NCBI RefSeq assembly: GCF_003751265.1
Contig: NZ_RJKN01000001.1
Coordinates: 62,001 to 126,000, forward strand
Length of the DNA stretch: 64,000 nt
DNA from: Pseudokineococcus lusitanus
Lineage (GTDB): Bacteria; Actinomycetota; Actinomycetes; Actinomycetales; Quadrisphaeraceae
Direction: 5' to 3'
The position numbers and the translations under genes were made by a program. Of this stretch, positions 29,081 to 43,976 are shown in pieces; the stretch's first letter is position 1, and each line of letters opens with the position of its first letter. The notes below the pieces were generated by a model. That model saw nothing but the letters and a program-made list of their open reading frames with translations, ran no database searches and had not been told where the DNA came from.

Positions 29081-29244
29081 GGCACGTCGGCGGCGAACTG
29101 CCGACAAAGTGCGCCGGAGTAGGCACTTCGGCGACGAACTGCCGACAGAGTGCGCCCGAGAGGGCACTTCGGCGACCAACTGCCGACTGATTGCGTCTCA
29201 GAGGGCACGTCGGCGGCAAAGTGCCGACAAGGCGCAGAGGCCCG
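29081..29244 (+). repeat. 41-base tandem array A, four units
   Basis: Units at 29081-29121, 29122-29162, 29163-29203 and 29204-29244. Each begins GGCAC, then TCGGC, an 8-base spacer and GCCGA, so each can form a 5-bp stem with an 8-nt loop; GCAC and GTGC further out add pairing in the first two units. Sequence between units varies, but the stem bases are identical in all four. The family recurs in array B at 43483-43729 in the same orientation. The period is not a multiple of 3, which argues against coding. Confidence 0.9.
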
Positions 29245-29268
29245 GGGGCGCGCCGGCCGCGGGGCCGG

Positions 29269-30162
29269 TCAGGGGACGAGCGGGGCGCCGACGAGGTGGA
29301 CGACCGCCGTGAGGTCGCGGCGGGTGAGGACGACGTCGGCCGCCGCGGCGAGGACCGGCTTCGCGCAGAAGGCGACGCCCGTGCCGGCGGCCCGGACCAT
29401 GTCGAGGTCGTTGGCGCCGTCGCCGACGGCCACCGTCCCGGCGAGGGGGACGTCGTGCCGCGCGGCGAGGGCGCGCAGGAAGCGCTCCTTCGCGGCGGCG
29501 TCGACGACGTCGCCCCGCACCCGGCCGGTGAGGTGGCCGCCCGAGACCTCGAGACGGTTGGCCTCCGCGTGCGGGACGCCGAGCGACGCCGCGAGCGGCT
29601 CGACCACCTCGGCGAAGCCGCCGGAGACGACGCCGACGGGGACGCCGGCCGCGGCCAGCGACCGCGCCATCGTCGCGGCGCCGGGGGAGGGGACCACCTC
29701 GGCGAGGACGTCGTCGAGCACGGTCGCCGGCAGCCCCTCGAGCAGCGCCACGCGACGGTGGAGGCTGCCGGCGAAGTCGACCTCGCCGCGCATCGCGGCC
29801 TCGGTGACCCGGGCCACCTCCCCCTCGACCCCGGCGCGGGCGGCGAGCATCTCGACCACCTCGCCGGTGATGAGCGTCGAGTCGACGTCGAGGACGACGA
29901 GCCGACGGCCCTCGCGCGCGGCGGCCGGCACGACGGCGACGTCGACCTCCTGCCCCGCGGGCAGGGTGGACGCCGCGTCGGCGAGGGCTCGGCGGACGGC
30001 GTCGCGCCCGCCGCGCACCCGCAGCTCCGCGACGCCGTCGCCGTCGTCCCGGACGTCGACGACGGCGGCCCCGGCGGCCACGAGGGCCGCCGGGGCACGT
30101 CCCGCGAGCCCGGCGGCGCCGGGACCGGTGAGGACGACGAGCAGGTCGGGCGCCTGGCTCAG
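29269..30162 (-). CDS. serB: Phosphoserine phosphatase SerB, apparent CTG start
   Basis: Releases serine from phosphoserine, the last step of serine synthesis. HAD-fold motifs are clear: DVDSTLI (nucleophile Asp), SGGFAEV and [10 protein letters not shown]. An N-terminal ACT-like regulatory part starts with [10 protein letters not shown]. The first standard start (GTG 30081) would cut away that part. CTG 30162 overlaps the glgC stop as CTGA, is in frame, and gives 297 residues with the usual family N-terminus. Upstream of it there is no ATG, GTG or TTG in the short open stretch. I annotate the CTG start; it is inferred, not proven. Confidence 0.85.
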
Positions 30163-31409
30163 CGGTCCACCCGGGCGTTCTTGCCGGCGACCGTGATGCC
30201 CGACGGCGTCACGGTGAAGCCGCGGGCACGGTCGGCCTCGGCGTCCACCCCGACGCTCGCGCCGTCGGGGACGACGACGTTCTTGTCGAGGATCGCGCGG
30301 CGGACGGTGGCGCCGCGGCCCACGTGGACGCCGTCCAGGAGCACCGAGCCGCTCACCGTGCTGCCCGTCTCGGCGCGGACGCCGGGGGACAGCACGGACT
30401 TGCTGACGGTCGCGCCGGAGAGCACGACACCCGGGGCGACGATCGAGTCGACGGCGGAGCCGGGGCTGCCGTCGTCGCCGTGCACGAACTTGGCCGGGGG
30501 CAGCGGCTGCTGCTGGGACAGGATCGGCCAGCGGCCGTTGTAGAGGTTGAAGACGGGCAGCGGCGAGATGAGGTCCATGTGGGCCTCGTAGTAGCTGTCG
30601 AGCGTCCCGACGTCCCGCCAGTACGCGCGGTCGCGGTCGGTCGTCCCCGGCACGTCGTTGCGCTGGAAGTCGTAGACGGCCGCGTCCCCGCGGGACACGA
30701 AGTCGGGGACGATGTCACCGCCCATGTCGTGCTTGGAGTCGGTGGCGGCGTCGCGCGTCACGGCGTCGACGAGGGCCGCGGCGTCGAAGACGTAGTTGCC
30801 CATCGACGCGAGGACCTCGCCGGGCGAGCCGGGGATGGTCGTCGGGTCGGACGGCTTCTCGCGGAAGGCGGTGATCCGGGGCGTGCCCGCCATGTCGACG
30901 TCGGAGCCGACCTCGATGACGCCGAACTGGTCGGCGAGCGAGACGGGCTGGCGGATCGCCGCGACCGAGCAGCCCGCGCCGGAGGCGACGTGCGCGTCGA
31001 CCATCTGCGAGAAGTCCATCCGGTACACGTGGTCGGCGCCGACCACGACGACGATGTCCGGGCGGGCGTCGTCGATGAGGTTGAGCGACTGGTAGATCGC
31101 GTCGGCGCTGCCGAGGTACCAGTTCTTGCCCACGCGCTGCTGCGCGGGGACGGGGGTCACGTAGTTGCCCAGCATCGTCGACATCCGCCACGTCATGGAG
31201 ATGTGCTTGTCGAGGCTGTGGGACTTGTACTGCGTGAGGACGACGACCTGCAGGTAGCCGGCGTTGGCCACGTTGGACAGGGCGAAGTCGATGAGGCGGT
31301 AGCTGCCGCCGAAGGGGACGGCCGGCTTGGCGCGGTCGGCGGTCAGCGGCATGAGGCGCTTGCCCTCGCCGCCGGCGAGCACGATCGCGAGGACCCGGGG
31401 GCTCGACAT
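30159..31409 (-). CDS. glgC: Glucose-1-phosphate adenylyltransferase
   Basis: Makes ADP-glucose from glucose-1-phosphate and ATP, the committed step of glycogen synthesis. The 416-residue product has [11 protein letters not shown] for nucleotide binding, the YQSLNLI region, and the FREKPSDP substrate site, with a C-terminal left-handed beta-helix domain from about residue 290. Start ATG 31409 has TAGGGT 6 nt upstream and is probably leaderless. It is divergent from glgA and coupled to serB at its 3' end. Confidence 0.96.
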
Positions 31410-31415
31410 GGGCCG

Positions 31416-31538
31416 ACCCTAGGGGTCACCGCCGCTGCGGCAAGGGGTGAGCCGCGGCGAGCCGCCGGGCGGACGGCGGGACGGCCGCCGCGCCGTGCGG
31501 GCGGGCCCGGGTGCGTGCGGTCCCCGGCCCGCTACGGT
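31416..31538. promoter_or_regulatory. Divergent leaderless promoters of glgC and glgA
   Basis: Minus strand TAGGGT (31421 to 31416) is 6 nt from the glgC ATG. Plus strand TACGGT (31533-31538) is 7 nt from the glgA ATG. Only about 110 bases separate the two -10 elements, so a regulator bound between them could act on both genes. No clear palindrome seen. Confidence 0.55.
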
Positions 31539-31545
31539 CCCCGCC

Positions 31546-32769
31546 ATGGCCGACGACGCCCCTGCCAGCGCCCTGCGCGTGGACCTCCTCACCCGTGAGT
31601 ACCCGCCGGAGGTCTACGGGGGCGCGGGCGTCCACGTCGCCGAGCTCGCGCGGGCCCTCCGGCCGCTCGCCGACGTCCGGGTGCAGTGCTTCGGCGCCCC
31701 GCGCGACGAGCCGGGCGTCACGGCCCACCCGGAACCGGCGACGCTCGAGGGCGCCAACGCCGCCCTGCGCACGCTGGGCGTCGACCTGTCGATGGCGGCC
31801 GCGACGGCCGGCACCGACCTCGTCCACAGCCACACCTGGTACGCCAACGTGGCCGGCGTCCTCGCGGCCCGGCTGCACGGCGTGCCGCACGTCGTCACCG
31901 CCCACAGCCTCGAGCCGCTGCGGCCCTGGAAGGCCGAGCAGCTGGGCGGCGGGTACGCCGTCTCCTCGTGGGCCGAGCACCAGGCCATGACGACGGCGGA
32001 CGCCGTCGTGGCCGTCAGCGCCGGCATGCGCGCCGACATCCTCCGCAGCTACCCCGAGGTCGACCCCGCGCGGGTCCACGTCGTGCACAACGGGATCGAC
32101 GCGGCGGACTGGCGACGGGACGACTCCGACGCCGCCCGCGAGCACGTCCGCACCCTCGGCATGGACCCGGACCGGCCGAGCGTCGTCTTCGTCGGCCGCA
32201 TCACCCGCCAGAAGGGCCTGCCGCACCTGCTCCGGGCCGCCGCGGCGCTGCCCCCCGAGGTCCAGCTCGTCCTCTGCGCGGGCGCCCCGGACACGCCGGA
32301 GATCGCCGCCGAGGTGGACGGGCTCACGGCCGAGCTCGCGCAGCAGCGCGACGGCGTCGTGCGGATCGACCGCATGCTGCCGCGGGCCGAGCTCTGCCAG
32401 GTGCTGTCGCTCGCGACCGTCTTCGTGTGCCCGTCGGTCTACGAGCCGCTCGGCATCGTCAACCTCGAGGCGATGGCCTGCGGCACGGCGGTCGTCGGCA
32501 CGGCGACCGGTGGCATCCCCGAGGTCGTCGACGACGGCCGCACCGGCTGGCTCGTGCCGATCGAGCAGGTCGACGACGGCACGGGGGCGCCCGTGGACCC
32601 CGAGCGCTTCGCCGCGGACCTCGCCGCCGTCCTCACCGAGGCGACCTCCGACCCGGCCGAGGCGCGCCGCCGCGGCGAGGCCGGCCGCGAGCGGGCCGTC
32701 GCCGAGTTCAGCTGGGACGCCATCGGCGAGCGGACGCTCGAGGTCTACCGGTCGGTGCTCGGGGGCTGA
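31546..32769 (+). CDS. glgA: Glycogen synthase GlgA/GlgM, GT4 family
   Basis: Actinobacterial GT4 glycosyltransferase that uses ADP-glucose, either to lengthen glycogen or, as shown for mycobacterial GlgM, to make maltose-1-phosphate. The 407-residue product has REYPPEVYGGAGVHV at the N-terminus, HSHTWYAN near residue 88, the phosphate-binding VGRITRQKGLPHLL, and the C-terminal E-x7-E motif in CPSVYEPLGIVNLEAMACG. ATG 31546 lies 7 nt behind TACGGT. Which of the two reactions it performs cannot be read from sequence. Confidence 0.93.
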   Translation: MADDAPASALRVDLLTREYPPEVYGGAGVHVAELARALRPLADVRVQCFGAPRDEPGVTAHPEPATLEGANAALRTLGVDLSMAAATAGTDLVHSHTWYANVAGVLAARLHGVPHVVTAHSLEPLRPWKAEQLGGGYAVSSWAEHQAMTTADAVVAVSAGMRADILRSYPEVDPARVHVVHNGIDAADWRRDDSDAAREHVRTLGMDPDRPSVVFVGRITRQKGLPHLLRAAAALPPEVQLVLCAGAPDTPEIAAEVDGLTAELAQQRDGVVRIDRMLPRAELCQVLSLATVFVCPSVYEPLGIVNLEAMACGTAVVGTATGGIPEVVDDGRTGWLVPIEQVDDGTGAPVDPERFAADLAAVLTEATSDPAEARRRGEAGRERAVAEFSWDAIGERTLEVYRSVLGG

Positions 32770-32776
32770 GCGCCCG

Positions 32777-32798
32777 GGTCCGCCCTCAGGGGCGGACC
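32777..32798. terminator. Bidirectional hairpin behind glgA
   Basis: A perfect 9-bp stem (32777-32785 and 32790-32798) with a TCAG loop lies between glgA and the convergent gene and covers the stop codon of the latter. Confidence 0.65.
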
Positions 32799-33565
32799 GG
32801 CTCCAGCACCGCGTTGACGGCGGCGACGACGGCGTGCCGCGCCACGACCTCGACGTCGCGCAGCGCCCCGGTCCGGGCGCGGGCCTCGTGGCCGGTGACG
32901 ACGGCGCCGTCATCCTCGGTGGCCAGCGCCACGACGCCGCGCAGGCGCACGGCCGTGGCGAGCACCTGCTGCGCGCGGGGCGGGGTCGACGCGGGGACGG
33001 CGTCGCGGGGGAGCGCGCCGCTGCGGACGGCCGCGATCCGGTCGGCCGCGTCCTCGCGCCAGCGGGCGACGTCGAGGCGCTGCAGCTCGGCCAGCGCGCG
33101 GGACAGCGCCGTCTGCAGCTGCCGCTCGGCGTCCCGCAGCGTCGTCGACGGCGGCGCGGCCGGGCGGCGGACCGGGGTCGCGTGCCAGGTGACGAGCGCG
33201 CCGGGCTCGAGGGCCGAGCCGAACTCGGTGACCTCCGGCCACGCGCCCCAGCGCGCGCCGGCGGCGTCCTCGTCGTCGGTCGTCACGGCCTCGCCGACGT
33301 CGAGCGCCTCGACGTTGAAGGCGGCCGGGCCGGGCAGGCCGGAGACGTCGCCCGGGACGGGCAGGACGAGCCGGAGACCGCGGTGCCCGGCGGTGCGCCA
33401 GCCCGCGAGGAGCTCGACGAGGTCCGTGGCGGGCGCGTCGCCGGCCACCTCGTGCGGCTCGTCGTCGCGCTGGACGGCCCGGGCGGCGACGGCCACGGGC
33501 ACCTCGCCGCGCAGGGCCGCCGTCCCCCAGGCGGCGAGGCGGGCGGAGCGGGGCAGGTCGATCAC
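32786..33565 (-). CDS. Conserved actinobacterial protein of unknown function
   Basis: A 259-residue cytosolic protein. The opening IDLPRSARLAAWGTAALRG is typical of a conserved actinobacterial family that has no assigned role. No catalytic motif, membrane helix or signal peptide is visible; the C-terminal half is helical and rich in Arg and Ala. GTG 33565 is supported by TAGGCT 7 nt upstream on the minus strand. It is divergent from the ABC ATPase gene, sharing an 86-base promoter region. Confidence 0.78.
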   Translation of the reverse strand: MIDLPRSARLAAWGTAALRGEVPVAVAARAVQRDDEPHEVAGDAPATDLVELLAGWRTAGHRGLRLVLPVPGDVSGLPGPAAFNVEALDVGEAVTTDDEDAAGARWGAWPEVTEFGSALEPGALVTWHATPVRRPAAPPSTTLRDAERQLQTALSRALAELQRLDVARWREDAADRIAAVRSGALPRDAVPASTPPRAQQVLATAVRLRGVVALATEDDGAVVTGHEARARTGALRDVEVVARHAVVAAVNAVLEPVRP

Positions 33566-33572
33566 GCGGCCG

Positions 33573-33644
33573 AGCCTACGAGCCCGGCCGGCGGCTCCCC
33601 GCGGCTCCCGGCGGCTCGGGCGGAGCGGGCCCGGCCAGTAGGGT
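33573..33644. promoter_or_regulatory. Divergent leaderless promoters
   Basis: Minus strand TAGGCT (33578 to 33573) is 7 nt from GTG 33565; plus strand TAGGGT (33639-33644) is 7 nt from ATG 33652. The spacing pattern is the same as at glgC/glgA. Confidence 0.5.
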
Positions 33645-33651
33645 CGCGGCC

Positions 33652-34518
33652 ATGAGCGAGGCCAGCCGTCCGACGCCCGCACGCCCGGCGGCAGGCCCCC
33701 GCGGCGACGCCCTCCCGACGACGAAGGGCACGCCCGACGAGCCCGTCCTCGACCTCGACGGCGTCACGGTCGTCCGCGACGGCCGGGCCCTGCTCGAGGA
33801 CGTCTCCTGGGCCGTCGGCGCCGACGAGCGATGGGTCGTCCTCGGCCCGAACGGCGCGGGCAAGACGACGCTCCTCCAGATCGCCGGCGCCCGGCTCTTC
33901 CCCACCCGCGGCCGCGCCGAGGTGCTGGGCGAGGAGCTGGGCGCCGTCGACGTCTTCGAGCTCCGCCCGCGCATCGGCCTGTCGAGCGCCGCTCTCGCGG
34001 AGCGGGTCCCGCCCGCCGAGAAGGTCGTCGACGTCGTCCTCACCGCCGCCTACGGCATGGTCGGCCGCTGGCGCGAGGAGTACGAGGGGCCCGACCACGC
34101 CCGCGCGCTGGAGCTCCTCGACGCCCTCGGCGTGGGCGGCCTCGACCGCCGCACCTACGGCACGCTCTCCGAGGGGGAGCGCAAGCGCGTCCAGCTGGCC
34201 CGCGCGCTCATGGCGGACCCCGAGCTGGTCCTCCTCGACGAGCCCGCCGCGGGCATGGACCTCGGCGGCCGCGAGGACCTCGTCCGCCGCCTGTCCGGCC
34301 TCGTCGCCGACCCGGCCGCGCCCGCCGTCGTCCTCGTCACGCACCACGTCGAGGAGGTGCCGCCCGGCATCACCCACGGGCTCCTGCTGCGCGAGGGGCG
34401 GGTCGTGGCCCAGGGCCCGCTCGAGGACGTCCTCACCCCCGCGGCGCTCGGCGCGACCTTCGGCCTGGCCCTGCGCGTCGAGCGGTCCGGCGGCCGCTGG
34501 GCGGCGCGGGCCGCGTGA
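33652..34518 (+). CDS. ABC transporter ATP-binding protein
   Basis: A 288-residue stand-alone ABC ATPase. Walker [13 protein letters not shown], signature LSEGERKRVQLARAL (a ModF/YfbT-like variant with Glu in place of the second Gly), Walker B LVLLDEPAAGMD and H-loop VTHHVEE are present. The closest recognisable type is the molybdate-type/iron-type ATPase without a linked permease. The first 30 residues are Pro/Arg-rich. It is coupled to a TSUP permease gene by a GTGA overlap, but TSUP carriers do not normally use an ATPase, so a functional pair is doubtful. Confidence 0.85.
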   Translation: MSEASRPTPARPAAGPRGDALPTTKGTPDEPVLDLDGVTVVRDGRALLEDVSWAVGADERWVVLGPNGAGKTTLLQIAGARLFPTRGRAEVLGEELGAVDVFELRPRIGLSSAALAERVPPAEKVVDVVLTAAYGMVGRWREEYEGPDHARALELLDALGVGGLDRRTYGTLSEGERKRVQLARALMADPELVLLDEPAAGMDLGGREDLVRRLSGLVADPAAPAVVLVTHHVEEVPPGITHGLLLREGRVVAQGPLEDVLTPAALGATFGLALRVERSGGRWAARAA

Positions 34519-35366
34519 ACGAGGCCCTGCTCGGCGACCTCACCGGCTGGCAGGTCGTCCTCCTCGCGCTGGCCGCGCTGTGGGCGGGCGCCGTCAACGC
34601 CGTGGTCGGCTCGGGGACCCTCATCACCTTCCCCACGCTCGTGGCGATGGGCGTGCCGCCCGTCTCCGCGACGATGTCCAACGCCGTCGGCCTCGTCGCG
34701 GGCGGCGTGTCGGGGACGTGGGGGTACCGCCGCGAGCTGCGCGGCCAGGGCGCCCGTGCCGCCCGGCTCATCCCGATGTCGGTGCTCGGCGCCCTCCTGG
34801 GGTCCTTCCTCCTGCTGCACCTGCCGGCCAGCGCGTTCGAGACGGTCGTGCCGGTCCTCGTGGTCCTGGCCATCGTCCTCGTCCTCCTCCAGCCGCGGCT
34901 CCAGGCGGCCACCCGCCGTCGCCTCGAACGGAAGGTCGCGGCCGGCGCCACCCCGGGCGCGCCCGGGACGTTGGACAGCCCCTCCGCCCCGCCGGCGGGC
35001 GGTCGCGGGGCGCAGGTCCTGCTGCTCGTCCTCACCTTCGTCATCGGCGTCTACGGCGGGTACTTCACGGCGGCGCAGGGCGTCCTGCTCGTCGGCGCCT
35101 TCGGGGCGGTCCTCGTCGAGAGCCTGCAGCGCATCAACGCGATGAAGAACCTGCTGTCCCTCGTCGTCAACGTCGTCGCGGCGGTCTCCTACACGCTCGT
35201 CGGCTTCGACCGCGTCCTGTGGGAGGCGGTGCTCGTCATCGCCGTCGGCTCGCTGCTCGGCGGCCTCCTCGGTGCGGCGGTCGGACGGCGGCTGCCGCCG
35301 GTCGTGCTGCGGGCGACGATCGTCGTCCTCGGCCTCGTGGCCCTCGTGTTCCTGGTGCTGCCGTGA
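34515..35366 (+). CDS. TSUP family (TauE/SafE) transporter
   Basis: A membrane carrier of 283 residues with about eight helices arranged as two repeats: GAVNAVVGSGTLITFPTLVAMG in the first half, and VYGGYFTAAQGVLLVGAFG in the second, the paired TSUP motifs. Family members move sulfite, sulfoacetate or other small organosulfur anions. A charged, Pro-rich loop of about 40 residues separates the halves. GTG 34515 overlaps the ATPase stop and its own stop overlaps the methylase start. Substrate unknown. Confidence 0.88.
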   Translation: MNEALLGDLTGWQVVLLALAALWAGAVNAVVGSGTLITFPTLVAMGVPPVSATMSNAVGLVAGGVSGTWGYRRELRGQGARAARLIPMSVLGALLGSFLLLHLPASAFETVVPVLVVLAIVLVLLQPRLQAATRRRLERKVAAGATPGAPGTLDSPSAPPAGGRGAQVLLLVLTFVIGVYGGYFTAAQGVLLVGAFGAVLVESLQRINAMKNLLSLVVNVVAAVSYTLVGFDRVLWEAVLVIAVGSLLGGLLGAAVGRRLPPVVLRATIVVLGLVALVFLVLP

Positions 35367-36232
35367 GCGCCTCCGGGGCCGACGTCGCCGTGCCCGACGG
35401 CCTCGTCGTCGACCACGTCGAGGACCCGGCCGACCCCCGCCTCGGCGACTACACCGACCTCACCGACGTGGCTCTGCGCCGTCGTCGGGAACCCGCCGAG
35501 GGCCTGTACATGGCGGAGTCGAGCACCGTCCTCGAGCGGGCGCTGCGGGTCGGGCACCGGCCGCGCTCGGTCCTCCTCGCCCCGCGCTGGCTGCCCGAGG
35601 TGCTGCCGCTGCTCGCCGCGCACGACGTCGGCCGCCGTCCCGGCGAGGCGCCCGTCCCCGTCCACGTGGCCGAGGAGCCGGCGCTGCGCGCCATCACGGG
35701 CTTCCACCTCCACCGCGGGGCGCTCGCGGCCATGCAGCGCCCGGTGCTGCCGCCGCTCGCGGAGGTGCTCGAGGGCGCCCGCCGCGTCGCGGTGCTCGAG
35801 GACGTCGTGGACCACACCAACGTCGGCGCCGTCTTCCGCTCCGCGGCGGCCCTCGGCGTCGACGCGGTCCTCGTGACGCCACGCTGCGCCGACCCGCTGT
35901 ACCGGCGCTCCGTGCGGGTGTCCATGGGCACGGTCTTCCAGGTGCCGTGGACGCGGCTGGACCCGTGGCCCGGGGGGCTCGACCTGCTGCGCGACCTCGG
36001 CTTCACGGTGGCGGCCCTCGCGCTGAGCGACGACAGCGTCTCCCTCGACGACCTCGCGGCCGACCCGCCGGAGCGCCTGGCCCTCGTCCTGGGGACCGAG
36101 GGGGACGGGCTGTCGCGCGCGGCCGTCGCGGGCAGCGACGTCGTCGTCCGCATCCCCATGGCCGGCGGGGTGGACTCGCTCAACGTCGCCGCGGCGGGCG
36201 CCGTGGCCTTCTGGGCCCTGCGCGCCCGCTGA
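35363..36232 (+). CDS. SpoU/TrmH-family RNA 2'-O-methyltransferase
   Basis: A SPOUT methyltransferase of 289 residues acting on rRNA or tRNA with S-adenosylmethionine. An N-terminal substrate-binding domain (residues 1-115) is followed by the knotted catalytic domain: motif 1 in DHTNVGAVFRSAAALG, motif 2 in LALVLGTEGDGLS and motif 3 in VRIPMAGGVDSLNVAAA. The target nucleotide is not predictable. The GTG start overlaps the TSUP stop. It ends 3 bases from the convergent ybaK-like gene. Confidence 0.92.
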   Translation: MSASGADVAVPDGLVVDHVEDPADPRLGDYTDLTDVALRRRREPAEGLYMAESSTVLERALRVGHRPRSVLLAPRWLPEVLPLLAAHDVGRRPGEAPVPVHVAEEPALRAITGFHLHRGALAAMQRPVLPPLAEVLEGARRVAVLEDVVDHTNVGAVFRSAAALGVDAVLVTPRCADPLYRRSVRVSMGTVFQVPWTRLDPWPGGLDLLRDLGFTVAALALSDDSVSLDDLAADPPERLALVLGTEGDGLSRAAVAGSDVVVRIPMAGGVDSLNVAAAGAVAFWALRAR

Positions 36233-36235
36233 GGC

Positions 36236-36781
36236 TCAGGCCGCGGGGCGCCCGAGCCCCTCGTGCACCTCGGCGCCCGGCAGGCGCGCGAGGAGCGCGC
36301 CCGGCAGCGCCAGCTTCGAGCGGCGGACGCCGCTGCCGACCACCGCGCGGGGGAGGGCCGCGACGGCGCCGTCGACGAGCACGCGCCAGCCGGCCGGCAG
36401 CCCGACCGGCGTGATGCCGCCGAACTCCATGGCCGAGACCTCGACGGCCTCCTCGCGGGGGAGGAACGACGCCTTGCGGACGTCGAGGGCCCGCTTGACG
36501 AGGCCGTTGACGTCGGCGCGGTCGCTGCCGCGGACGAGGGCGGCGGCCACGCGCTGCTCGCCGTCCCGCCTCCCCGCGACGAGGACGCAGTTGGCGCTCT
36601 CCTCGAGCGTGACGTCGCTGGTCGCGACGAGCGCTGCGGTGTCCGCGACGTCGGGGTCGACCTCGGCGACGAGCACCTGCGCGGCGTCGTCGGCCGGCAG
36701 CGCGCGCAGCGCGGCGAGCACGGGGTCGGCGAGGAGGTCGGGGCGGTCGAGGGCGGGCACCCACACGAGCGTCGTCGTCAC
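36236..36781 (-). CDS. YbaK-type aminoacyl-tRNA deacylase
   Basis: A 181-residue member of the YbaK/ProX family, which clears mischarged tRNAs (for example Cys- or Ala-tRNA-Pro). Blocks ESANCVLVAGRRDGE, a conserved Lys in VRKASFL and the closing GGITPVGLP are in the expected order. GTG 36781 has TAGCCT 6 nt upstream on the minus strand, so it is probably leaderless. It converges with the methylase gene. Which tRNA it edits is unknown. Confidence 0.88.
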   Translation of the reverse strand: MTTTLVWVPALDRPDLLADPVLAALRALPADDAAQVLVAEVDPDVADTAALVATSDVTLEESANCVLVAGRRDGEQRVAAALVRGSDRADVNGLVKRALDVRKASFLPREEAVEVSAMEFGGITPVGLPAGWRVLVDGAVAALPRAVVGSGVRRSKLALPGALLARLPGAEVHEGLGRPAA

Positions 36782-36787
36782 GCCCCG

Positions 36788-36793
36788 AGGCTA
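36788..36793 (-). promoter_or_regulatory. -10 hexamer of the ybaK-like gene (leaderless)
   Basis: TAGCCT on the minus strand, 6 nt from GTG 36781. It lies 60 bases beyond the ppc terminator. Confidence 0.45.
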
Positions 36794-36853
36794 GGAGACG
36801 GCCTGCCCGGCGGACGCCACCGCCACCTCGCCTCGCTCCGGGGCCCCTCCACC

Positions 36854-36918
36854 CCGGTCTTCGTGGCCATGCACCGCCTGAGGAGCCCGGGCAGGCGGTG
36901 CATGGCGACGAAGACCCG
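36854..36918 (-). terminator. Long near-perfect hairpin behind ppc
   Basis: Arms 36854-36880 and 36892-36918 pair over about 26 bases with a single mismatch and one bulged base; loop of 11 nt. It begins 22 bases past the ppc stop. This is much longer than the other hairpins here and less GC-monotonous, so it may be more than a terminator. Confidence 0.65.
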
Positions 36919-36939
36919 GTGCGACGACCCGGGAGAGGG

Positions 36940-39822
36940 TCAGCCGGTGTTGCGCATCCCCGCCGCGATGCCGTTGATCGTCAGCAGCAGCGCGCGGCGC
37001 AGGACCGGGTCGACGTCGTCGCCCGCCGCCCGCGAGCGGCGCAGCAGCTCGACCTGGAGGGCGTGGAGCGGGGCGAGGTAGGAGTCGCGCAGCTCCAGCG
37101 TGCGCCGCAGGACCGGCGAGCTCTCGAGCAGCTGCTCCTGCCCCGTCACGGCGAGGACCTCGGCGACGGTGCGGTCGTGCTCCTCGCGCAGCACCTCGAG
37201 CAGGGACGCCGTCCCGTCGGGGCACAGGCCCTCGACGTAGCGGGCGGCGATGGACAGGTCCGTCTTGGCCAGCGTCATCTGGACGTTGCCGAGGAAGCTG
37301 CGGAAGAACGGCCACTCCTCGACCATCCGGCGCATCCGCTCGGTGTGGCCCGCCTCGCGGGCCGCGGCCAGGCCGCTGCCGACGCCGAACCAGCCCGGCA
37401 CGTTGATCCGCGTCTGCGTCCACCCGAAGACCCACGGGATGGCGCGCAGGTCCTCGAGGCCGCCGGTGCCGCCGGGGCGACGGGCCGGGCGGGAGCCGAT
37501 GTTGAGGTGGCCGAGCTCCTCGACCGGCGTGGCGGAGAGGAAGAAGGGCACGAGGCGCTCGTCCTCGACGAGGGCCCGGTAGCGGTCGCGGCCGGCCGCG
37601 GCGACGACGTCCATCGTCGCGTCCCAGCCGTCGAGGACGGGGCGCGCGACGACGGGCTCGCTGCGCAGCGTCGACGCCTCGAGGACGGCCGACAGCGCGA
37701 CGTCGAGGTTGTGCACCGCGAGGCCGTGGAGCAGGTACTTGTCGGAGATGACCTCGCCCTGCTCGGTGACCTTCATGGCGCCGTCGAGGCTGCCGGCGGG
37801 CTGGGCGAGGATCGCCTCGCCAGTGGGGCCGCCGCCGCGCCCGACCGACCCGCCGCGGCCGTGGAAGAGCCGCAGCTGGACGCCGTGGGCGCGCGCGACG
37901 TCGCGGAGCGCCCGCTGGGCCCGGTGGATCTGCCAGCGCGAGGCGGCGATGCCGCCGTCCTTGGAGCTGTCGGAGTAGCCGAGCATGATCTCCTGCACGT
38001 CCCCGCGGGCCGCGACGACGCGACGGTAGGACGGGTCGGAGAGCAGCTCGTCGAGCAGCGGGCCAGCGGCCTCGAGCTCGGTGATGGTCTCGAAGAGCGG
38101 CGCGACGCCGACCCGCGCCGTCGCGGGCAGCGACGGGTCGACGGGCAGGTCGACGAGGCCGACCTCGCGGGCGAGGACGACGACGGCGAGGAGGTCGTCG
38201 ACGCCCTTGGTCATCGACACGACGTAGGTCTCGACGGCGTCGTCGCCGAAGCGGTCGAGCGCCGTGCGGACCGTGCGGACGAGCTCCACGACCTCGCCGG
38301 CCGTGCCGTCGAGCGCGTCGAGGGTCGCGGCGCCGGCCAGCGGGCGGCCGCCGCGGAGCTCGGCGGAGAGGAAGGCCGTCCGGTCGGCGCGGTCGAGCTC
38401 GGCGTACGGCCGGTCCGACGCCTGCGCGCGGTCGACGAGCGCGGCCAGCGCGGCGTGGTGACGCTCGGAGTGCTCGCGGATGTCGAGGGTGGCCAGCCCG
38501 AGGCCGGTGGCGGCGACGGTCCGCAGCGCGCGGGCGACGACGCCCTCGGCGACGAGGGCGCAGCCGTTGCCCGCGAGGGAGCGCTGCACGAGCTCGAGCT
38601 CGTCGAGGAGGCCGCCGACGTCGGCGTAGTCCTGGCCGGGCACGTGCGCGCCGCCCGTCGCCAGCCGACGCTGCGTGCCCTCGAGCCGGGCGCGGACGTA
38701 GCTGAGCTTGAGGCGGTACGGCTCCTCCGCGTTGAGCCGGTGCCGCAGCTCCCACACGGCCGGGAGCTGCTCGCGGTCGCGGTCGAGCGAGGCCCGCAGC
38801 TCCCCGGAGACGGTGACCACCTGGGTGGAGGAGGCGAGCTCGACGACGAGCTCGTCGACCGTGCGCAGGAGGACGCCGAGGCCGGTCTCGTGCTGCTGCG
38901 CGAGCACCTCGAGCGTGACGGCGGGCGTGACGTTGGGGTTGCCGTCGCGGTCGCCGCCTACCCAGCTGCCGAAGCGGAGCGGTCGGGCGCGCGGCGCCAC
39001 CTCGACGCCGAGGGGCGCCAGGCGGTGGGACAGCTCCTCGAGCAGGTCGGGGAGCACGCCGGTGGCGAGCGACGAGAGGTAGTAGAGCGCCGAGCGGGCC
39101 TCGTCGGCCGGCGCGGGACGCTCGACGCGCAGCTCGTCGGTCTGCCACAGCAGGTCGACGAGCTCGACGACGCGGCGCTCGTCGGCGTCCGCGTCGGAGG
39201 CGCGGCGGCGCGGGTCGCCCGCCCGGTCGAGGGCGCCGGCGACGCGCGAGAGCAGGTCGAGGACCGAGCGACGGCTGGACTCCGTCGGGTGCGCGGTGAA
39301 GACGGGCCGCAGCTCCATCCGGTCGACGACCCGCTGCAGCTCCTCGCGGGTCAGCGAGCCCTCGTCGAGGGCGGCGGCGATGCGCGGGACGCTGTGCGCG
39401 AGACCGGCTCCCGGCCGCGAGGCGAGCTCGCGCGAGCGGTGCAGCTGCTCGGTGACGTTGGCCAGCTGGAAGTACGCGGTGAAGGCGCGGGCGAGGACGA
39501 CCGCGGTGCCGTCCCCGACGCCGGACAGGACCCGGCTCAGCTCGGCGCCCTCGTCGGGGCGGCGCGCCAGGTGGCGCACCCGCTCGACGAGGTCGAGCAG
39601 GCCCCGGCCCTCGTGGCGCTCGAGCGCCTCGCCGAGCAGCGCCGCGAGCCGCCGCACCGTCGCGCGCAGCTGGGTGTGCGCCTCGTCGGAGGAGACGCCG
39701 TCGCCCAGCGGGGGGACGAGCCGCCCGCCCGCCACGGGGAGGGGGCCGGTGGCCGGGTCGCCACCGCCGCTGCCGGGGCCGTCGGCCGGGTCGGTGACGT
39801 CCGCTGCCGGGCTGGTGCTCAT
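36940..39822 (-). CDS. ppc: Phosphoenolpyruvate carboxylase
   Basis: Adds bicarbonate to phosphoenolpyruvate to give oxaloacetate and refills the citric acid cycle. The 960-residue product has the catalytic His in FTAHPTESSRRS, the Arg/Gly loop GGDRDGNP, the second signature GYSDSSKDGG, and the glycine-rich HGRGGSVGRGGGP. The C-terminus MRNTG is the standard end of the enzyme. ATG 39822 is spaced 5 nt from a GAGGAG ribosome binding site. The first 35 residues are low complexity. Confidence 0.97.
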   Translation of the reverse strand: MSTSPAADVTDPADGPGSGGGDPATGPLPVAGGRLVPPLGDGVSSDEAHTQLRATVRRLAALLGEALERHEGRGLLDLVERVRHLARRPDEGAELSRVLSGVGDGTAVVLARAFTAYFQLANVTEQLHRSRELASRPGAGLAHSVPRIAAALDEGSLTREELQRVVDRMELRPVFTAHPTESSRRSVLDLLSRVAGALDRAGDPRRRASDADADERRVVELVDLLWQTDELRVERPAPADEARSALYYLSSLATGVLPDLLEELSHRLAPLGVEVAPRARPLRFGSWVGGDRDGNPNVTPAVTLEVLAQQHETGLGVLLRTVDELVVELASSTQVVTVSGELRASLDRDREQLPAVWELRHRLNAEEPYRLKLSYVRARLEGTQRRLATGGAHVPGQDYADVGGLLDELELVQRSLAGNGCALVAEGVVARALRTVAATGLGLATLDIREHSERHHAALAALVDRAQASDRPYAELDRADRTAFLSAELRGGRPLAGAATLDALDGTAGEVVELVRTVRTALDRFGDDAVETYVVSMTKGVDDLLAVVVLAREVGLVDLPVDPSLPATARVGVAPLFETITELEAAGPLLDELLSDPSYRRVVAARGDVQEIMLGYSDSSKDGGIAASRWQIHRAQRALRDVARAHGVQLRLFHGRGGSVGRGGGPTGEAILAQPAGSLDGAMKVTEQGEVISDKYLLHGLAVHNLDVALSAVLEASTLRSEPVVARPVLDGWDATMDVVAAAGRDRYRALVEDERLVPFFLSATPVEELGHLNIGSRPARRPGGTGGLEDLRAIPWVFGWTQTRINVPGWFGVGSGLAAAREAGHTERMRRMVEEWPFFRSFLGNVQMTLAKTDLSIAARYVEGLCPDGTASLLEVLREEHDRTVAEVLAVTGQEQLLESSPVLRRTLELRDSYLAPLHALQVELLRRSRAAGDDVDPVLRRALLLTINGIAAGMRNTG

Positions 39823-39999
39823 GGCGCTCCTCGCGGGAAGGGGCGGCCGGCCCGCCGCGGCGGTCCGGACGGCCGGTCCGGGTGTGACGGCGGCCAGTGT
39901 GCTGCAGACCACACCGCGGCGGGCCAGGGCGTCCGGCAGCCGGGCGGGCGGGGCCGCGCGGGGCGGGGCCGACGACGGCCCCCGGGGACGGGGGCCACG

Positions 40000-40041
40000 A
40001 CGACGAAGGGCCGCTCCCCACGGGGAGCGGCCCTTCGTCGT
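40000..40041 (-). terminator. Hairpin terminator behind tRNA-Leu
   Basis: A perfect 20-base inverted repeat (40000-40019 and 40022-40041; inner pairs open to form the loop) ends 2 bases from the tRNA 3' CCA. It would end tRNA transcription before ppc. Confidence 0.8.
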
Positions 40042-40043
40042 GC

Positions 40044-40131
40044 TGGTGTCCGGAGGGGGACTTGAACCCCCACGCCCGATAAAGGGCACTAGCACCTCAA
40101 GCTAGCGCGTCTGCCATTCCGCCACCCGGAC
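40044..40131 (-). tRNA. tRNA-Leu (anticodon GAG)
   Basis: Read on the minus strand, a class II tRNA with 7-bp acceptor stem GTCCGGG/TCCGGAC (one G-T pair), anticodon loop TTGAGGT (anticodon GAG, reading CTC and CTT), an extended variable arm, the T-loop TTCAAGT, discriminator A and an encoded CCA at 40044-40046. CTC is a heavily used Leu codon in this genome, so this is a major tRNA. Confidence 0.95.
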
Positions 40132-40244
40132 AGGTGCCGTGCGGCGCCGGGGCGCCGCGACGGGGAGAAAATTAGCACGCCCGGCGGGGTCGTCCGCCCG
40201 CCGCCCGCGACGGCGCCGCCCCGGGCGGCGGGCGACGGCGTCGC

Positions 40245-40250
40245 TACCGT
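40245..40250 (+). promoter_or_regulatory. -10 hexamer of the M20 peptidase gene (leaderless)
   Basis: TACCGT, 6 nt ahead of ATG 40257. Confidence 0.5.
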
Positions 40251-40256
40251 CGGACC

Positions 40257-41612
40257 ATGGCCGACACCGCAGCACCCTCGTCCGCCCAGCCGTCCGACCG
40301 GCCCTCCGCCCGCGGCCCCGTCGCCGCCGACGAGGTGGTGGACATCGCCGCCGACCTCATCCGCATCGACAGCTCGAACTACGGCGACGGCAGCGGGCCG
40401 GGGGAGCGGGCGGCGGCCGAGCACGTCGTCGGGCTGCTCGAGGAGGTCGGCCTGGCGGCCGAGCTGCTCGAGAGCGACCCCGGTCGCGCCAACGTCGTGC
40501 TGCGCCTGCCGGGCGAGGACCGCTCGCGGGACGCGCTCGTGCTGCACGGGCACCTCGACGTCGTGCCCGCCCGCGCGGCCGACTGGAGCGTCGACCCCTT
40601 CGGCGGCGAGGTGCGCGACGGCTGCCTGTGGGGCCGCGGCGCCGTCGACATGAAGGGGATGGACGCGATGATCCTCTCCGTCGTCCGCCAGATGACCCGC
40701 GAGGGCCGTCGCCCGGCCCGCGACGTCGTCGTCGCCTTCACGGCCGACGAGGAGGCCGGGAGCGTCAAGGGCGCGGGCTTCCTCGTCGAGACCCGTCCGG
40801 ACCTCTTCGAGGGCGCCACCGAGGCGGTGAGCGAGGTCGGCGGCTTCTCCCTCGACGTCGCCGGGCAGCGCTGCTACCTCGTCCAGACGGCGGAGAAGGG
40901 CATCGCCTGGGTCCGGCTCGTGGCCCACGGCCGCGCCGGGCACGGCAGCCAGGTCAACGACGACAACGCCGTGACCCGCCTCGCCGGTGCGGTGGCCCGG
41001 ATCGGGGCGCACCGGTGGCCGCTGGAGATCCGGCCGACGGTGCGCGCCTTCCTCGAGGGCGTCGAGGACATCACGGGTGAGCCCCTCGACCCGGAGGACT
41101 TCGACGCGCTGACCCGCGTCCTCGGGACGACGGCCAACTGGGTCGGCGCGACCCTGCGCAACACGTCCAACCCCACCCAGCTCGAGGCGGGCTACAAGCA
41201 CAACGTCATCCCGGGCACGGCGACGGCCCTCGTCGACTGCCGCACCCTCCCGGGCCAGGGCGAGCACGTGCTCGACGTGGTGCGCGAGCTGGCCGGGCCG
41301 GGCGTCGACGTCGAGGTCGTCCACCAGGACACCGCGCTCGAGACCGACCTCACGGGCTCGCTGCCCGACGCCATGGTCGCGGCGCTGCTGGCGGAGGACC
41401 CGGGCGCGCGCGTCCTGCCGTACTGCCTGTCCGGCGGCACGGACAACAAGGCCCTCGCCCGGCTCGGCATCCGCGGCTTCGGCTTCGCGCCGCTGCAGCT
41501 GCCGGCGGACCTCGACTTCGCGGGCATGTTCCACGGCGTCGACGAGCGCGTGCCCACCGAGGCGCTGCGCTTCGGCACCCGCGTGCTCGACCGGCTGCTC
41601 GCGACCTGCTGA
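40257..41612 (+). CDS. M20 family zinc peptidase/deacylase
   Basis: A 451-residue metallohydrolase of the M20/M25/M40 group (dipeptidase, carboxypeptidase or deacylase). Zinc ligands fall in HGHLDVVP and GAVDMKG; the catalytic and ligand Glu pair is in FTADEEAGS; a dimerisation domain occupies about residues 215-330 and the last His is in MFHGVDERVP. The protein is cytosolic. ATG 40257 lies 6 nt behind TACCGT. The natural substrate cannot be told. Confidence 0.92.
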   Translation: MADTAAPSSAQPSDRPSARGPVAADEVVDIAADLIRIDSSNYGDGSGPGERAAAEHVVGLLEEVGLAAELLESDPGRANVVLRLPGEDRSRDALVLHGHLDVVPARAADWSVDPFGGEVRDGCLWGRGAVDMKGMDAMILSVVRQMTREGRRPARDVVVAFTADEEAGSVKGAGFLVETRPDLFEGATEAVSEVGGFSLDVAGQRCYLVQTAEKGIAWVRLVAHGRAGHGSQVNDDNAVTRLAGAVARIGAHRWPLEIRPTVRAFLEGVEDITGEPLDPEDFDALTRVLGTTANWVGATLRNTSNPTQLEAGYKHNVIPGTATALVDCRTLPGQGEHVLDVVRELAGPGVDVEVVHQDTALETDLTGSLPDAMVAALLAEDPGARVLPYCLSGGTDNKALARLGIRGFGFAPLQLPADLDFAGMFHGVDERVPTEALRFGTRVLDRLLATC

Positions 41613-41669
41613 GCCGCCCCGGCGCCGGGGGCCGGCCGTCGGGGGGCCGCCCCGCGGCGGCCGGGGCCG

Positions 41670-41933
41670 TCAGGCGCTGCGCTGCATCCGGATGATGCGG
41701 CGGCGCAGGACGACCCGGCGCAGGCCGCCGACGTAGAGGCGCACGCCGGCGAGCTCCCAGCGGCCGTACTCGGCCTCCTCGGTGAGCTGCTCGCGGGCGG
41801 CGCCGCGCGACGTGCCGCGGGGCAGGGTGATCTCGCGGTACTCGAAGGCGGAGGCGCGGGGGGCGGCGGGGGGAGCGGTCCGACGGCCCTGGCCCGGGGT
41901 GTCCCGGCCGTCGGGGTGCACGGTGGCGTCCAT
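41670..41933 (-). CDS. DUF5703 family protein
   Basis: A basic 87-residue protein. After a 25-residue variable N-terminus the conserved core runs from FEYREITLPRGTSRGAAREQL through YGRWELAGVRLY to RRRIIRMQR. The family is restricted to Actinobacteria and has no known role. ATG 41933 is the only start that keeps the whole core with a short lead. It is divergent from the acidic protein gene at 42075 and convergent with the peptidase gene. Confidence 0.85.
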   Translation of the reverse strand: MDATVHPDGRDTPGQGRRTAPPAAPRASAFEYREITLPRGTSRGAAREQLTEEAEYGRWELAGVRLYVGGLRRVVLRRRIIRMQRSA

Positions 41934-42062
41934 CGTCGCCGATGGTGCCACGGGGCCCCGACGACGGGCCCCGCGACCGCCCGTCCGGGCCCGCCGACGA
42001 CGCCGTCGGGACGCCCGGTGCCGACGCCCCGTCACGCGTCGCCGCACCACGTCGCGCAGGGC

Positions 42063-42068
42063 TACGGT
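42063..42068 (+). promoter_or_regulatory. -10 hexamer of the acidic protein gene (leaderless)
   Basis: TACGGT, 6 nt ahead of ATG 42075. Confidence 0.5.
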
Positions 42069-42074
42069 CTGCCC

Positions 42075-42404
42075 ATGAGCAGCGAGCCCCGTGTCGCCCT
42101 GGCCCGCCTCGTCGGGGCGCTGGAGGCCCACCTCGACGCCGTCGAGCGGCGCCGCTCCGACACCGACCCCGTCGTGAAGGACGCCTACTCCTCCCTCGCC
42201 GACGCCTTCGAGGGCTACGACGAGGCCCTCTACGAGGCCCACGACGAGGTGACGCCCTTCGTGCTCTTCGACGAGGACGCCGAGGACGACGAGGACGACG
42301 ACGTGGAGGAGCTGGACGAGGACGACGACGACCTCGACGACGAGGACGACGACGAGCAGGACGACGACGGGGACGGGCCGGACGACCGGCACCCCCGCCT
42401 CTGA
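42075..42404 (+). CDS. Small acidic conserved protein
   Basis: A 109-residue protein. Residues 1-65 are helical with a conserved-looking core (ARLVGALEAHLDAVERRR, then DAYSSLADAFEGYDEALYE). The last 40 residues are almost all Asp and Glu. Homologues next to DUF5703 are sometimes labelled primosomal protein, which I would not adopt. The acidic tail may mimic DNA or keep the protein soluble; that is a guess. ATG start lies 6 nt behind TACGGT. Confidence 0.8.
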   Translation: MSSEPRVALARLVGALEAHLDAVERRRSDTDPVVKDAYSSLADAFEGYDEALYEAHDEVTPFVLFDEDAEDDEDDDVEELDEDDDDLDDEDDDEQDDDGDGPDDRHPRL

Positions 42405-42408
42405 GGCG

Positions 42409-42429
42409 GGCCGGCCCACGGGGCCGGCC
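42409..42429. terminator. Hairpin between convergent genes
   Basis: A perfect 9-bp stem with an ACG loop, between the acidic protein gene and the aldo/keto reductase gene. Confidence 0.6.
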
Positions 42430-42443
42430 GGTCGGGCCCCGGG

Positions 42444-43400
42444 TCAGACGGGGCGGCCGACGTCCCGGCGGGACGTCGAGACCTCGTCGAGCGCCGCGGT
42501 GATCTGCGCGGGCAGCCGCAGGTCGGCCGCGGTCAGCGCCAGCCGCAGCTGCGCCGCGGTCCGCGCGCCCGTCACGGCGGCGGCCACGCCCGGACGGTCG
42601 GCGGCCCACGCCAGCGCCACGGCCAGCGGGGCCCGCTCGAGCCCGTCGGCGGCCGTGCACACGGCCTCGACGACGCCCCGCGCCGACGGGTCGAGGTGCG
42701 GCTGGACGACGTGGACGAGGTGGGGCGACGCCGCCCGGGAGTCGGCCGGCAGCGCGTGCCGGTACTTGCCGGTCAGGACGCCCCCGCCGAGCGGGCTGCG
42801 CGCGAGCACCCCGACCCCGGAGGCCTCCGCGGCGTCGAGCAGGTCGCCGTCGGCCCACCGGGCGACGAGCGACAGCTCCGCCTGGGCCGCGACGAGCGGC
42901 GTGCCCGCCGGGGCGAGGGCCGCGGCGCGGGCCAGCTGCCACGCGCCGTGCTCGGCCACGCCGACGTAGCGCGCCCGTCCGGAGCGGACCGCCTCCTCGA
43001 GGGCGGACAGCTGCTCCTCCACGGGCGCGTCGCCGGACCCCTCGAGGAGGAGCAGGTCGACGTGGTCGGTCCGCAGCCGCGCGAGGGAGAGGTCGAGGTC
43101 GGCGAGGACGGTCCGTCGCGAGCCGTCGGGCCGACGGTCGCGGCCGGTGCCGCGGGCGCCGACGCGCAGCGCGAGGACGACGTCGCGCCGCGGCACCTCC
43201 TCGTGGAGCAGCGCCCCGAGCAGCTCCTCCGACTCGCCGGCCGGCGTCGCCGCCGTCTCGACGAGGGTCCCGCCCGCCCGCGCGAAGTCCCGCAGCAGCT
43301 CGGCGGCCTCGTGCTCGTCGGTGTCGCGCCCCCACGTGAGGGTGCCGAGGCCGAGCCGCGAGACGCGCAGCCCGGAGCGTCCGACGCGCCGGGTCTCCAT
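42444..43400 (-). CDS. Aldo/keto reductase
   Basis: A 318-residue (alpha/beta)8-barrel oxidoreductase of the YajO/Tas type, NADPH-dependent. The N-terminal METRRVGRSGLRVSRLGLGT is typical, and the barrel ends with the cofactor-binding VTGARTAAQL. The usual catalytic Asp is in a position occupied by ETAATPAGESEELLG, where the canonical DTA-x-Y reads ETAATPAG, so the Tyr of the DxxxxY pair is missing. Either catalysis differs or this is a structural or regulatory relative. ATG 43400 lies 7 nt behind TACCCT on the minus strand. Confidence 0.85.
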   Translation of the reverse strand: METRRVGRSGLRVSRLGLGTLTWGRDTDEHEAAELLRDFARAGGTLVETAATPAGESEELLGALLHEEVPRRDVVLALRVGARGTGRDRRPDGSRRTVLADLDLSLARLRTDHVDLLLLEGSGDAPVEEQLSALEEAVRSGRARYVGVAEHGAWQLARAAALAPAGTPLVAAQAELSLVARWADGDLLDAAEASGVGVLARSPLGGGVLTGKYRHALPADSRAASPHLVHVVQPHLDPSARGVVEAVCTAADGLERAPLAVALAWAADRPGVAAAVTGARTAAQLRLALTAADLRLPAQITAALDEVSTSRRDVGRPV

Positions 43401-43407
43401 GCCCGCG

Positions 43408-43413
43408 AGGGTA
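43408..43413 (-). promoter_or_regulatory. -10 hexamer of the aldo/keto reductase gene (leaderless)
   Basis: TACCCT on the minus strand, 7 nt ahead of ATG 43400. Confidence 0.5.
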
Positions 43414-43482
43414 TCCACGCGCCGTCGACGCCCCGGGACGTCACCGGGAGCGGCGGCCGCCGTCGGGAGGCCGACCGTCCAG

Positions 43483-43729
43483 CACCCATCGGCGGCCAAG
43501 TGCCGACAGGGTGCGCCCCGGGGCGGCACATCGGCGACGAACTGCCGACACAGTGCGCCCCGGACGGCACATCGGCACCCAACTGCCGACACAGTGCGGC
43601 ACTGACGGCACATCGGCGACGAAGTGCCGACAGGGTGCGCCCCGGGCGGCACATCGGCGGCCAACGGCCGACACGGTGCACGCAGGGCGGCACATCGGCG
43701 GCCAACTGCCGACACAGTGCGGCACGGCG
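43483..43729 (+). repeat. 41-base tandem array B, six units
   Basis: Units start at about 43483 (42 bases, one extra G), 43525, 43566, 43607, 43648 and 43689. Each has CATCGGC, an 8-base spacer and GCCGAC, forming a 5-bp stem with an 8-nt loop; in most units GCAC (units 2-6) and GTGC add outer pairs. The stem bases are identical in all six units while the 8-nt loop and the linker vary. Same family and orientation as array A at 29081-29244. Confidence 0.92.
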
Positions 43730-43801
43730 GACGACGGCGCGCGCACGGGTGAGCCGGGGGCGTCGTCGCCCGAGGTGGGGGCCGGCGGGCGCCGCGGTGG
43801 C

Positions 43802-43910: not shown

Positions 43911-43976
43911 GTGCCCCAGCCGCCCCAGCCCCGCCGCCCCCGGCCGACGCGCCGCCCGACGACGGCGGTCGCCTGA
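43911..43976 (+). CDS. Putative 21-residue leader peptide of uppP
   Basis: GTG followed by 20 codons and TGA. The product is Pro/Arg-rich (starts [16 protein letters not shown]). GGGAGG lies 9 nt ahead of the GTG, every codon ends in G or C, and the stop overlaps the uppP ATG by one base (TGATG), a classic translational-coupling junction. Proline runs slow ribosomes, so this could tune uppP expression. In a GC-rich genome such a frame can arise by chance, so it is only a candidate. Confidence 0.4.

Follow-up and report, generated by a model that had tools for sequence, protein, structure and literature searches.

Why should short repeats lying between bacterial genes keep so even a distance from one another? 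The question is raised by a 64,000-nucleotide stretch of the Pseudokineococcus lusitanus genome (contig NZ_RJKN01000001.1, positions 62,001 to 126,000 of the forward strand; hereafter the window), in which a first-pass annotation, made from the letters alone, had pointed to two tandem arrays, A and B, of one intergenic repeat that carries the bases TCGGC and GCCGA, 8 bases apart. A third array in the window shares their 41-bp register; the annotation mentions neither this array nor the register common to arrays of unlike sequence. The three are:

29081..29244, + strand: array A, four 41-bp units (core GGCAC-n-TCGGC-N8-GCCGAC), with convergent gene ends on either side
43483..43729, + strand: array B, six 41-bp units (one step of 42 bp) of the family found in A, with divergent genes on either side
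49729..49912, + strand: third array, 4.5 copies of a 41-bp unit whose core, of the CGAACAGGCGCCTGTTCG type, is not that of A and B

The P. lusitanus genome (G000; 3.84 Mb in 19 contigs) holds at least 59 such arrays, whose palindromic cores are of several kinds and whose unit is in most cases 41 bp long; the figure is the sum of 41 clusters with two or more F2 or F3 cores (core names are our own) and 18 arrays of other cores (16 and two, from separate scans), and the true number is probably higher because only about 30% of the genome was read. Its phosphoenolpyruvate carboxylase gene is closest, among named genomes, to those of Pseudokineococcus (85-87% identity), a genus not known to be pathogenic; all others, Kineococcus included, reach 68% or less. 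Arrays range from 2 to about 8 sites, one per 41 bp. The genome-wide profile search proposed by the first-pass annotation, run with a model of 16 units (those of A, B and another array of that unit on contig 5), returned below its strong matches many weak ones in runs at 41-bp spacing, and Tandem Repeats Finder (TRF) resolved, around the matches, 24 arrays of period 40-42, those of the window included, with differing unit sequences. Since these stretches had been selected by the model, a second sample was taken, of 40 stretches of 20 kb of G000 chosen irrespective of repeats. Applied at E<=0.01 to 29 genomes, our own and those of relatives, the model matched four: its own, the congener G003 (33 matches) and, by single weak matches, G008 and G028; no match was found in the two other congeners of our four-genome genus set, G001 and G002.

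The cores of the clean arrays are palindromes: ACTTCG-CTGC-CGAAGT for F2, GAACAGGCGCCTGTTC for F3, GTGAAGTCGACGTCGACTTCAC for F4 and GGCGACATGGCCACACATCGCC for F5; F1, the A/B-type core, is looser than these. With up to two mismatches G000 has 65 places for F3 and 108 (65+43) for F2, the reversed control patterns giving 2 and 0-1, and the congeners have 1-4 places for each core. The 150 places listed out of these 173 fall into 45 clusters; two or more cores are present in 41, and four are singletons. F2 and F3 are many-copy extragenic palindromes, a description that rests, as to location, on the clusters read, which are not all of them: the arrays read sit in intergenic gaps or touch a gene end. 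Doublets of the F2 core, the only core so searched, are absent from the 295 other genomes of a 296-genome set of the class, in which the congeners are not included, leaving our own genome as sole carrier. They were also found in no viral contig searched, and array B matched no phage and gave two weak matches to plasmids (38% coverage, one species); a phage or plasmid origin was rejected on these grounds.

Distances between neighbouring cores among the 150 listed places (n=105) are 41 bp in 92 cases, 40 in 6 and 42 in 2, hence 40-42 in 100 of 105, with the rest at 78 (1) and 81-83 (4). F2 and F3 both keep a constant site distance that is close to whole turns of the helix, 41 bp being 3.9 turns at 10.5 bp per turn. 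Arrays built on the F3 core have spacers seemingly unrelated from one array to another, and their unit still departs from 41 by at most one base. The one clean mixed case is an array in which an F3 core comes after four F2 cores, at a centre-to-centre distance of exactly 41 bp. The unselected stretches gave the same picture: their 385 intergenic gaps contain one, seven, one and one arrays of period 40, 41, 42 and 43, respectively, and none of period 31-39 or above 43, although at least two of these ten (L215:17152 and L259) may be ordinary G+C-rich repeats, and the scan missed one array (L212:12655-12809) found in an earlier one. That earlier scan had also classed as intergenic one 33-bp and one 36-bp repeat beside stretch edges.

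The register extends to congeners. The 217 gaps sampled in G003 hold five arrays with a period between 38 and 44, every one of them at 41, and the 211 gaps sampled in G002 hold four at 41 and three at 42; in both congeners the unit sequences differ from those of G000. A test independent of repeat finders counts exact 6-base self-matches in intergenic DNA at each lag from 12 to 130 (119 lags). By their rate lag 41 comes first in both G000 and G002 (z 16.0 and 12.8) and fourth in G003 (z 10.1, behind 15, 18 and 30); at three named Pseudokineococcus loci it ranks 13 (z 2.7), lag 42 reaching z 9.1. Beyond the genus the groups sampled lack such a peak, one small sample (G005) being less clear. In 260 kb from g2, a neighbouring genus that is probably Kineococcus (four genomes), lag 41 lies outside the twelve best, of which the first is lag 42 (z 5.2); it is likewise outside the twelve best in G006 (100 kb), and neither sample contains an intergenic array of 38-44 bp. 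In G005 lag 41 comes second (z 5.5), in just 4.1 kb of intergenic DNA and with no TRF array. Kin outside Pseudokineococcus may thus carry a similar periodicity, as the g2 and G005 values indicate; a general actinobacterial feature was rejected, lag 41 ranking 66, 27, 29, 101 and 100 of 119 in five other groups. A 39-bp array in Nocardioides sp. CFH 31398 (L092:15047-15216; 4.4 units, 94% matches) is perhaps a comparable element with another period.

Length and sequence of the spacers can be compared directly. Ten of 62 adjacent spacer pairs differ in length, and the 52 pairs of equal length carry 352 substitutions in 1300 positions (27%). In the control, orthologous intergenic DNA of two congeners, there are 376 substitutions and 51 indels (odds ratio 4.8, p 7.5e-7); masking every tandem repeat leaves 275 and 27, respectively (odds ratio 3.5, p 6e-4). 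Length changes are thus 3.5- to 4.8-fold rarer per substitution in the spacers than in ordinary intergenic DNA of the genus, a result that is suggestive rather than final because within-genome copies are set against between-species alignments and the core search omits spacings beyond 60 bp. The spacers are not those of a clustered regularly interspaced short palindromic repeat (CRISPR) array, adjacent ones of equal length differing at only 27% of positions; this judgement was made on spacers, cas genes not being among the things searched.

The shortage of length changes speaks against a neutral satellite, that is, an ancestral 41-bp array copied about by recombination or a mobile element, homogenised locally and retaining an inherited period without function. 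So do the retention of 41 in three species despite differing unit sequences and the occurrence of same-core arrays whose spacers look unrelated, as if separately amplified. The rapid turnover of the arrays, on the other hand, is what a satellite would show. Array A lies in the gap behind serB, which is free of arrays in all three congeners, G001, G002 and G003; the gap of array B has none in G001 or G002, the G003 gap being not clearly orthologous; and that of the third array, behind mshC, has none in G002 or G003, the G001 contig ending there. At a locus near the phosphoenolpyruvate carboxylase gene an F5 array has four units in an uncultured Pseudokineococcus (L074:232-389) and three in P. 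marinus (L075:2675-2757), two of these three being inverted as read by eye from the sequence. The avoidance of divergent gaps in unselected samples (below), the lack of a visible function and the weakness of many palindromes point the same way, and we consider a neutral satellite a real, if rather doubtful, possibility.

Among described repeats the nearest are the repetitive extragenic palindromic (REP) elements: short palindromes outside genes that number tens to hundreds, in several families per genome that are often species-specific, mostly placed between convergent or co-oriented genes (PMC3733652, PMC3116915), some of which form evenly spaced tandem arrays in P. fluorescens SBW25 (PMC3116915). 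The Pseudokineococcus arrays resemble REPs, their paired forms (REPINs) and bacterial interspersed mosaic elements (BIMEs) in being many-copy extragenic palindromes with several cores and similar placing (PMC3733652). They differ in having few singletons (4 of 45 clusters), in keeping one 41-bp register across cores and species, and in lacking the Y1 transposase: the REP-associated tyrosine transposase (RAYT; Y1_Tnp, PF01797) is found in none of the four genus genomes by a search that, as a control, detected it in 5 of 14 known ones. Strictly RAYT-driven REPs were rejected accordingly; this is a REP-like system that lacks RAYT and adds a spacing rule. Tagged REPs may differ as well, the consensus of 80 F2 and 28 F3 units having no constant tetranucleotide beside the core, although no systematic search for tags was made. 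CGTC-tagged REPs, which have 8-9 bp stems, 4-5 bp loops and no dedicated transposase, are described in PMC3733652 as mainly head-to-head dimers, rarely clustered and mostly alphaproteobacterial, and the word Actinobacteria does not occur in the main text of that paper; the present arrays are like them in being palindromes without a dedicated transposase and unlike them in their clustering and actinobacterial host.

Two further comparisons can be made. With bacterial variable number tandem repeat (VNTR) loci, or minisatellites, the arrays share tandem intergenic repeats and variable copy number; to our knowledge, ordinary VNTR loci do not have one period common to unrelated unit sequences. Phased operator and partition-site arrays (ParA/ParB, iterons) consist of palindromic or repeated sites at whole-turn spacing that bind dimers cooperatively; they are, as far as is known, single loci on replicons, whereas Pseudokineococcus has dozens of arrays across the chromosome, on several cores. 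No description of such arrays appeared among the matches listed in a search of the open-access literature by titles and abstract openings, a scope outside which most subscription papers fall.

As to placement, the arrays favour gaps between convergent genes. The surroundings were read for 45 arrays of G000, of which four are doubtful members. The flanking genes are convergent in 17, co-oriented in 22 and divergent in 6, the corresponding numbers among the 385 gaps being 47, 242 and 96, a convergent excess with p 4.8e-5 that is unchanged (p 4.8e-5) without the doubtful four (16, 19 and 6; n=41). Many of the 45 were found through the A/B model and not at random; the unselected samples of three species (n=22) also show the excess, with 7 convergent, 14 co-oriented and 1 divergent (p 0.015 for convergent, 0.038 for divergent). 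Many arrays begin within tens of bases of a stop codon; in the window the third array starts 28 bp past that of mshC, and 24 bp separate the end of serB from array A. The neighbouring genes, with coordinates from our own gene caller checked against protein-family matches only, are:

28414..28887, + strand: gene left of array A (gene call alone), 3' end towards A
29269..30081, - strand: serB, phosphoserine phosphatase (NCBIfam TIGR00338, 1.3e-63), 3' end towards A
42444..43400, - strand: aldo/keto reductase gene (PF00248, 1.8e-47; longer open frame 42447-43871), 5' end towards B
43976..44848, + strand: gene right of array B (gene call alone), 5' end towards B
48429..49700, + strand: mshC, mycothiol ligase (NCBIfam TIGR03447, 2.2e-187), directly upstream of the third array

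These calls bear out the context given by the first-pass annotation, A between convergent gene ends and B between divergent genes. Other repeats occur in the same neighbourhoods: a perfect 17-bp tandem repeat of 2.2 copies (28890-28927 of the window) a few bases past the stop of the gene left of A, and, near serB, a 30-bp tandem repeat with 7.7 copies in G001 (L182:4596-4825) and 2.7 in G002 (L178:8238-8318). Elsewhere in G000 a 29-bp unit that has no relation to the 41-bp arrays is repeated 8.6 times almost without change (98% matches) where no genes are called (G000:C2:164287-164535; L203:14287-14535), and there is a perfect 8-bp tandem repeat, CCGCACCA, of 5.8 copies (L005:18905-18950, G000:C5).

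What the sites themselves might be was put by the first-pass annotation as a choice between selection on pairing and a protein site with two half-sites, argued from units of A and B that are largely as it described them. TRF reports period 41 at 29081-29230 (3.7 copies) and 43487-43721 (5.7 copies), and TCGGC-N8-GCCGA is present in all ten units of what is one family, on the + strand, starting at 29087, 29128, 29169 and 29210 in A and at 43489, 43531, 43572, 43613, 43654 and 43695 in B. There are no other + strand matches in the window, and among 100 first-order Markov sequences the mean count was 0.9 and the highest 4. Two details need amending. The first step in B is 42 rather than 41; and the stem is indeed constant in the ten units, but so are eight further columns, three of them in the 8-base loop, making 18 invariant columns of 41. 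Moreover, the ten units descend from one another by duplication, and agreement among them does not amount to ten independent observations.

Of the two options, pairing fared badly. Across the 16 units of A, B and the contig 5 array no pair of the 5-bp stem is altered on both sides, three of the five pairs being invariant, and the TCGGC/GCCGA stem is not retained in other arrays of the 41-bp register. The RNA hairpin as originally drawn was rejected for this absence of compensatory change, and a longer alternative palindrome, GGCAnTTCG/CGAAnTGCC, was rejected too, with 78% of cells paired and no compensatory changes. A stem varying elsewhere in the genome, arrays absent from relatives and a lack of compensation were what the annotation had named as telling against its proposal; all three were found, the absence being from the orthologous gaps that could be read, and they count against pairing. 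The half-site idea fares better: the clean cores are dyads, with F2 letters mostly kept and one symmetric change, whereas A and B are weak palindromes.

That symmetric change is seen in 82 distinct F2 cores, most of whose arm positions are nearly invariant. Only the pair -6/+6 covaries, as T-A in 47 cores and G-C in 16, so that 63 are Watson-Crick where 43.6 would be expected, a number that none of 2000 shuffles reached; the intermediates listed are T-C (10), G-A (3), T-T (2), C-C (2) and a single G-T. At -9/+9, C stands against C in 32 of the 82. This pattern would fit the half-sites of a symmetric protein site, and an RNA stem less well, with the caveat that copies within an array are related and that mutational correction of imperfect palindromes can also produce symmetric changes.

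The same data bear on RNA function in general, in which transcription from the flanking genes would run into the arrays and yield rows of hairpins that terminate transcripts or stop 3' exonucleases, a role proposed for REPs. The convergent excess and the nearness of stop codons would suit such an element, as would array B, which folds better than its shuffles on both strands (z -4.9 and -3.6). Good folding, however, is expected of any tandem repeat with an inverted part, and single units reach z -0.9 to -3.9 (five strands). Against an RNA role stand the missing compensatory changes in the A/B stem, the C-C mismatches tolerated in F2 arms and a covarying pair with one G-T intermediate, the independence of F2 orientation from gene direction, and the lack of anything evident in RNA structure to account for a 41-base register. 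Intrinsic terminators (a G+C-rich hairpin followed by a T run) are absent from both strands of A and B, the two arrays scanned for them, in keeping with the annotation's view that simple termination does not explain both; and the only Rfam match above the gathering score in the whole window is one tRNA, with no known RNA at the arrays. Overall an RNA element appears unlikely.

Orientation within arrays raises another alternative. The centre of F2 is asymmetric, and both of its orientations are present in 13 of the 45 clusters, 12 of them ordered +...+ -...- (8 of 10 in a looser scan); 3 of 7 two-core clusters are + then -, and most F2 neighbours have the same orientation. Terminal units differ from inner ones, with G-C at the third arm position in 12 of 35 terminal and 4 of 53 inner units. 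(In F2 arrays such as C2:89100-89362, ACGTCG...CGACGT is commoner in terminal units and ACTTCG...CGAAGT in inner ones.) A unidirectional element facing incoming polymerase was rejected, orientation in co-oriented gene pairs being independent of gene direction. The ordering looks as if arrays had grown from an inverted pair, and with the terminal units and the single period despite unlike spacers it is consistent with a fixed-length amplification, for instance by a nuclease or template switching at a palindrome, yielding 41-bp duplications whose period would be the ruler of the mechanism and not selected. There is no candidate enzyme, RAYT being absent, and amplification alone would not maintain length, because length is kept where adjacent spacers differ by 27%; we regard it as improbable.

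The reading that we tentatively prefer, while holding it to be somewhat short of an even chance, is that these REP-like palindromes are helically phased sites for a dimeric DNA-binding protein. Pseudokineococcus would then have a dispersed repeat system of intergenic arrays with one site per 41 bp, about four helical turns, each palindrome being the DNA site of a putative dimeric, sequence-specific protein. The fixed register would set successive dimers on nearly one face of the helix and so favour cooperative assembly, and the resulting nucleoprotein stacks, over-represented between convergent genes, might act as boundaries to transcription or supercoiling or as chromosome-organising sites. 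Gain and loss of arrays would be rapid, as for REPs. Observation covers the arrays, their register, the variety of cores, the empty orthologous gaps, the convergent excess and the shortage of length changes; the protein, its cooperativity, the role and the way the arrays spread are inferred. Support for a protein site comes from the register, its sharing by three species, the constraint on length, the symmetry of F2 and the convergent excess.

Several observations weigh against this reading. Masking tandem repeats weakens the depletion of length changes from 4.8 to 3.5, in favour of a satellite, and the length comparison mixes two kinds of alignment, as noted above. The divergent deficit in G000 is not significant (p 0.096, or 0.18 without the four doubtful arrays), with B among the six divergent arrays, and the F2 arrays taken alone (n=17; 3 divergent, 3 or 4 convergent) show no clear excess at gene ends. 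Palindromicity exceeds that of shuffles at p<0.05 in only 8 of 45 array consensuses from three species, A and B having p 0.46 and 0.59, and as a defining trait of every array it is not supported. The 22 distinct F3 cores have no covarying pair, one pair being A-C in 9 of them. Dyads half-way between F2 cores are weak (0.44 at +21 and 0.42 at -21, mean 0.29) and below those at +/-6; for F3 only that at -21 is among the twelve best. F2 neighbours of opposite orientation are 41 bp apart in 13 of 14 cases, which a flip of the centre in place could also produce without any bearing on spacing. That cores are commonly mixed within one register was rejected, distances in a looser five-core scan being mostly scattered and the clean case single. 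Finally, several cores per genome, and other cores in other species, would need several proteins or one of loose or fast-changing specificity.

A bolder form of the phased protein-site reading would have a genus-wide system conserve the 41-bp helical register and not the site sequence, the sites being replaced between species and phased for a cooperative nucleoprotein array at gene boundaries, so as to form a bacterial counterpart of satellites with a co-evolving binding protein; we think this unlikely on present evidence. REP-like repeats are usually recognised by their sequence. In Pseudokineococcus the sequence shifts between arrays and between species, and the spacing much less, which makes the arrays a place to test whether helical phasing is under selection in non-coding bacterial DNA. 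Should no protein come to light, their period would be one that is inherited or fixed mechanically, and this likewise needs explanation; should one be found, dozens of natural phased arrays with different cores would offer a system in which to follow the rates at which a repeat and its binding protein change together.

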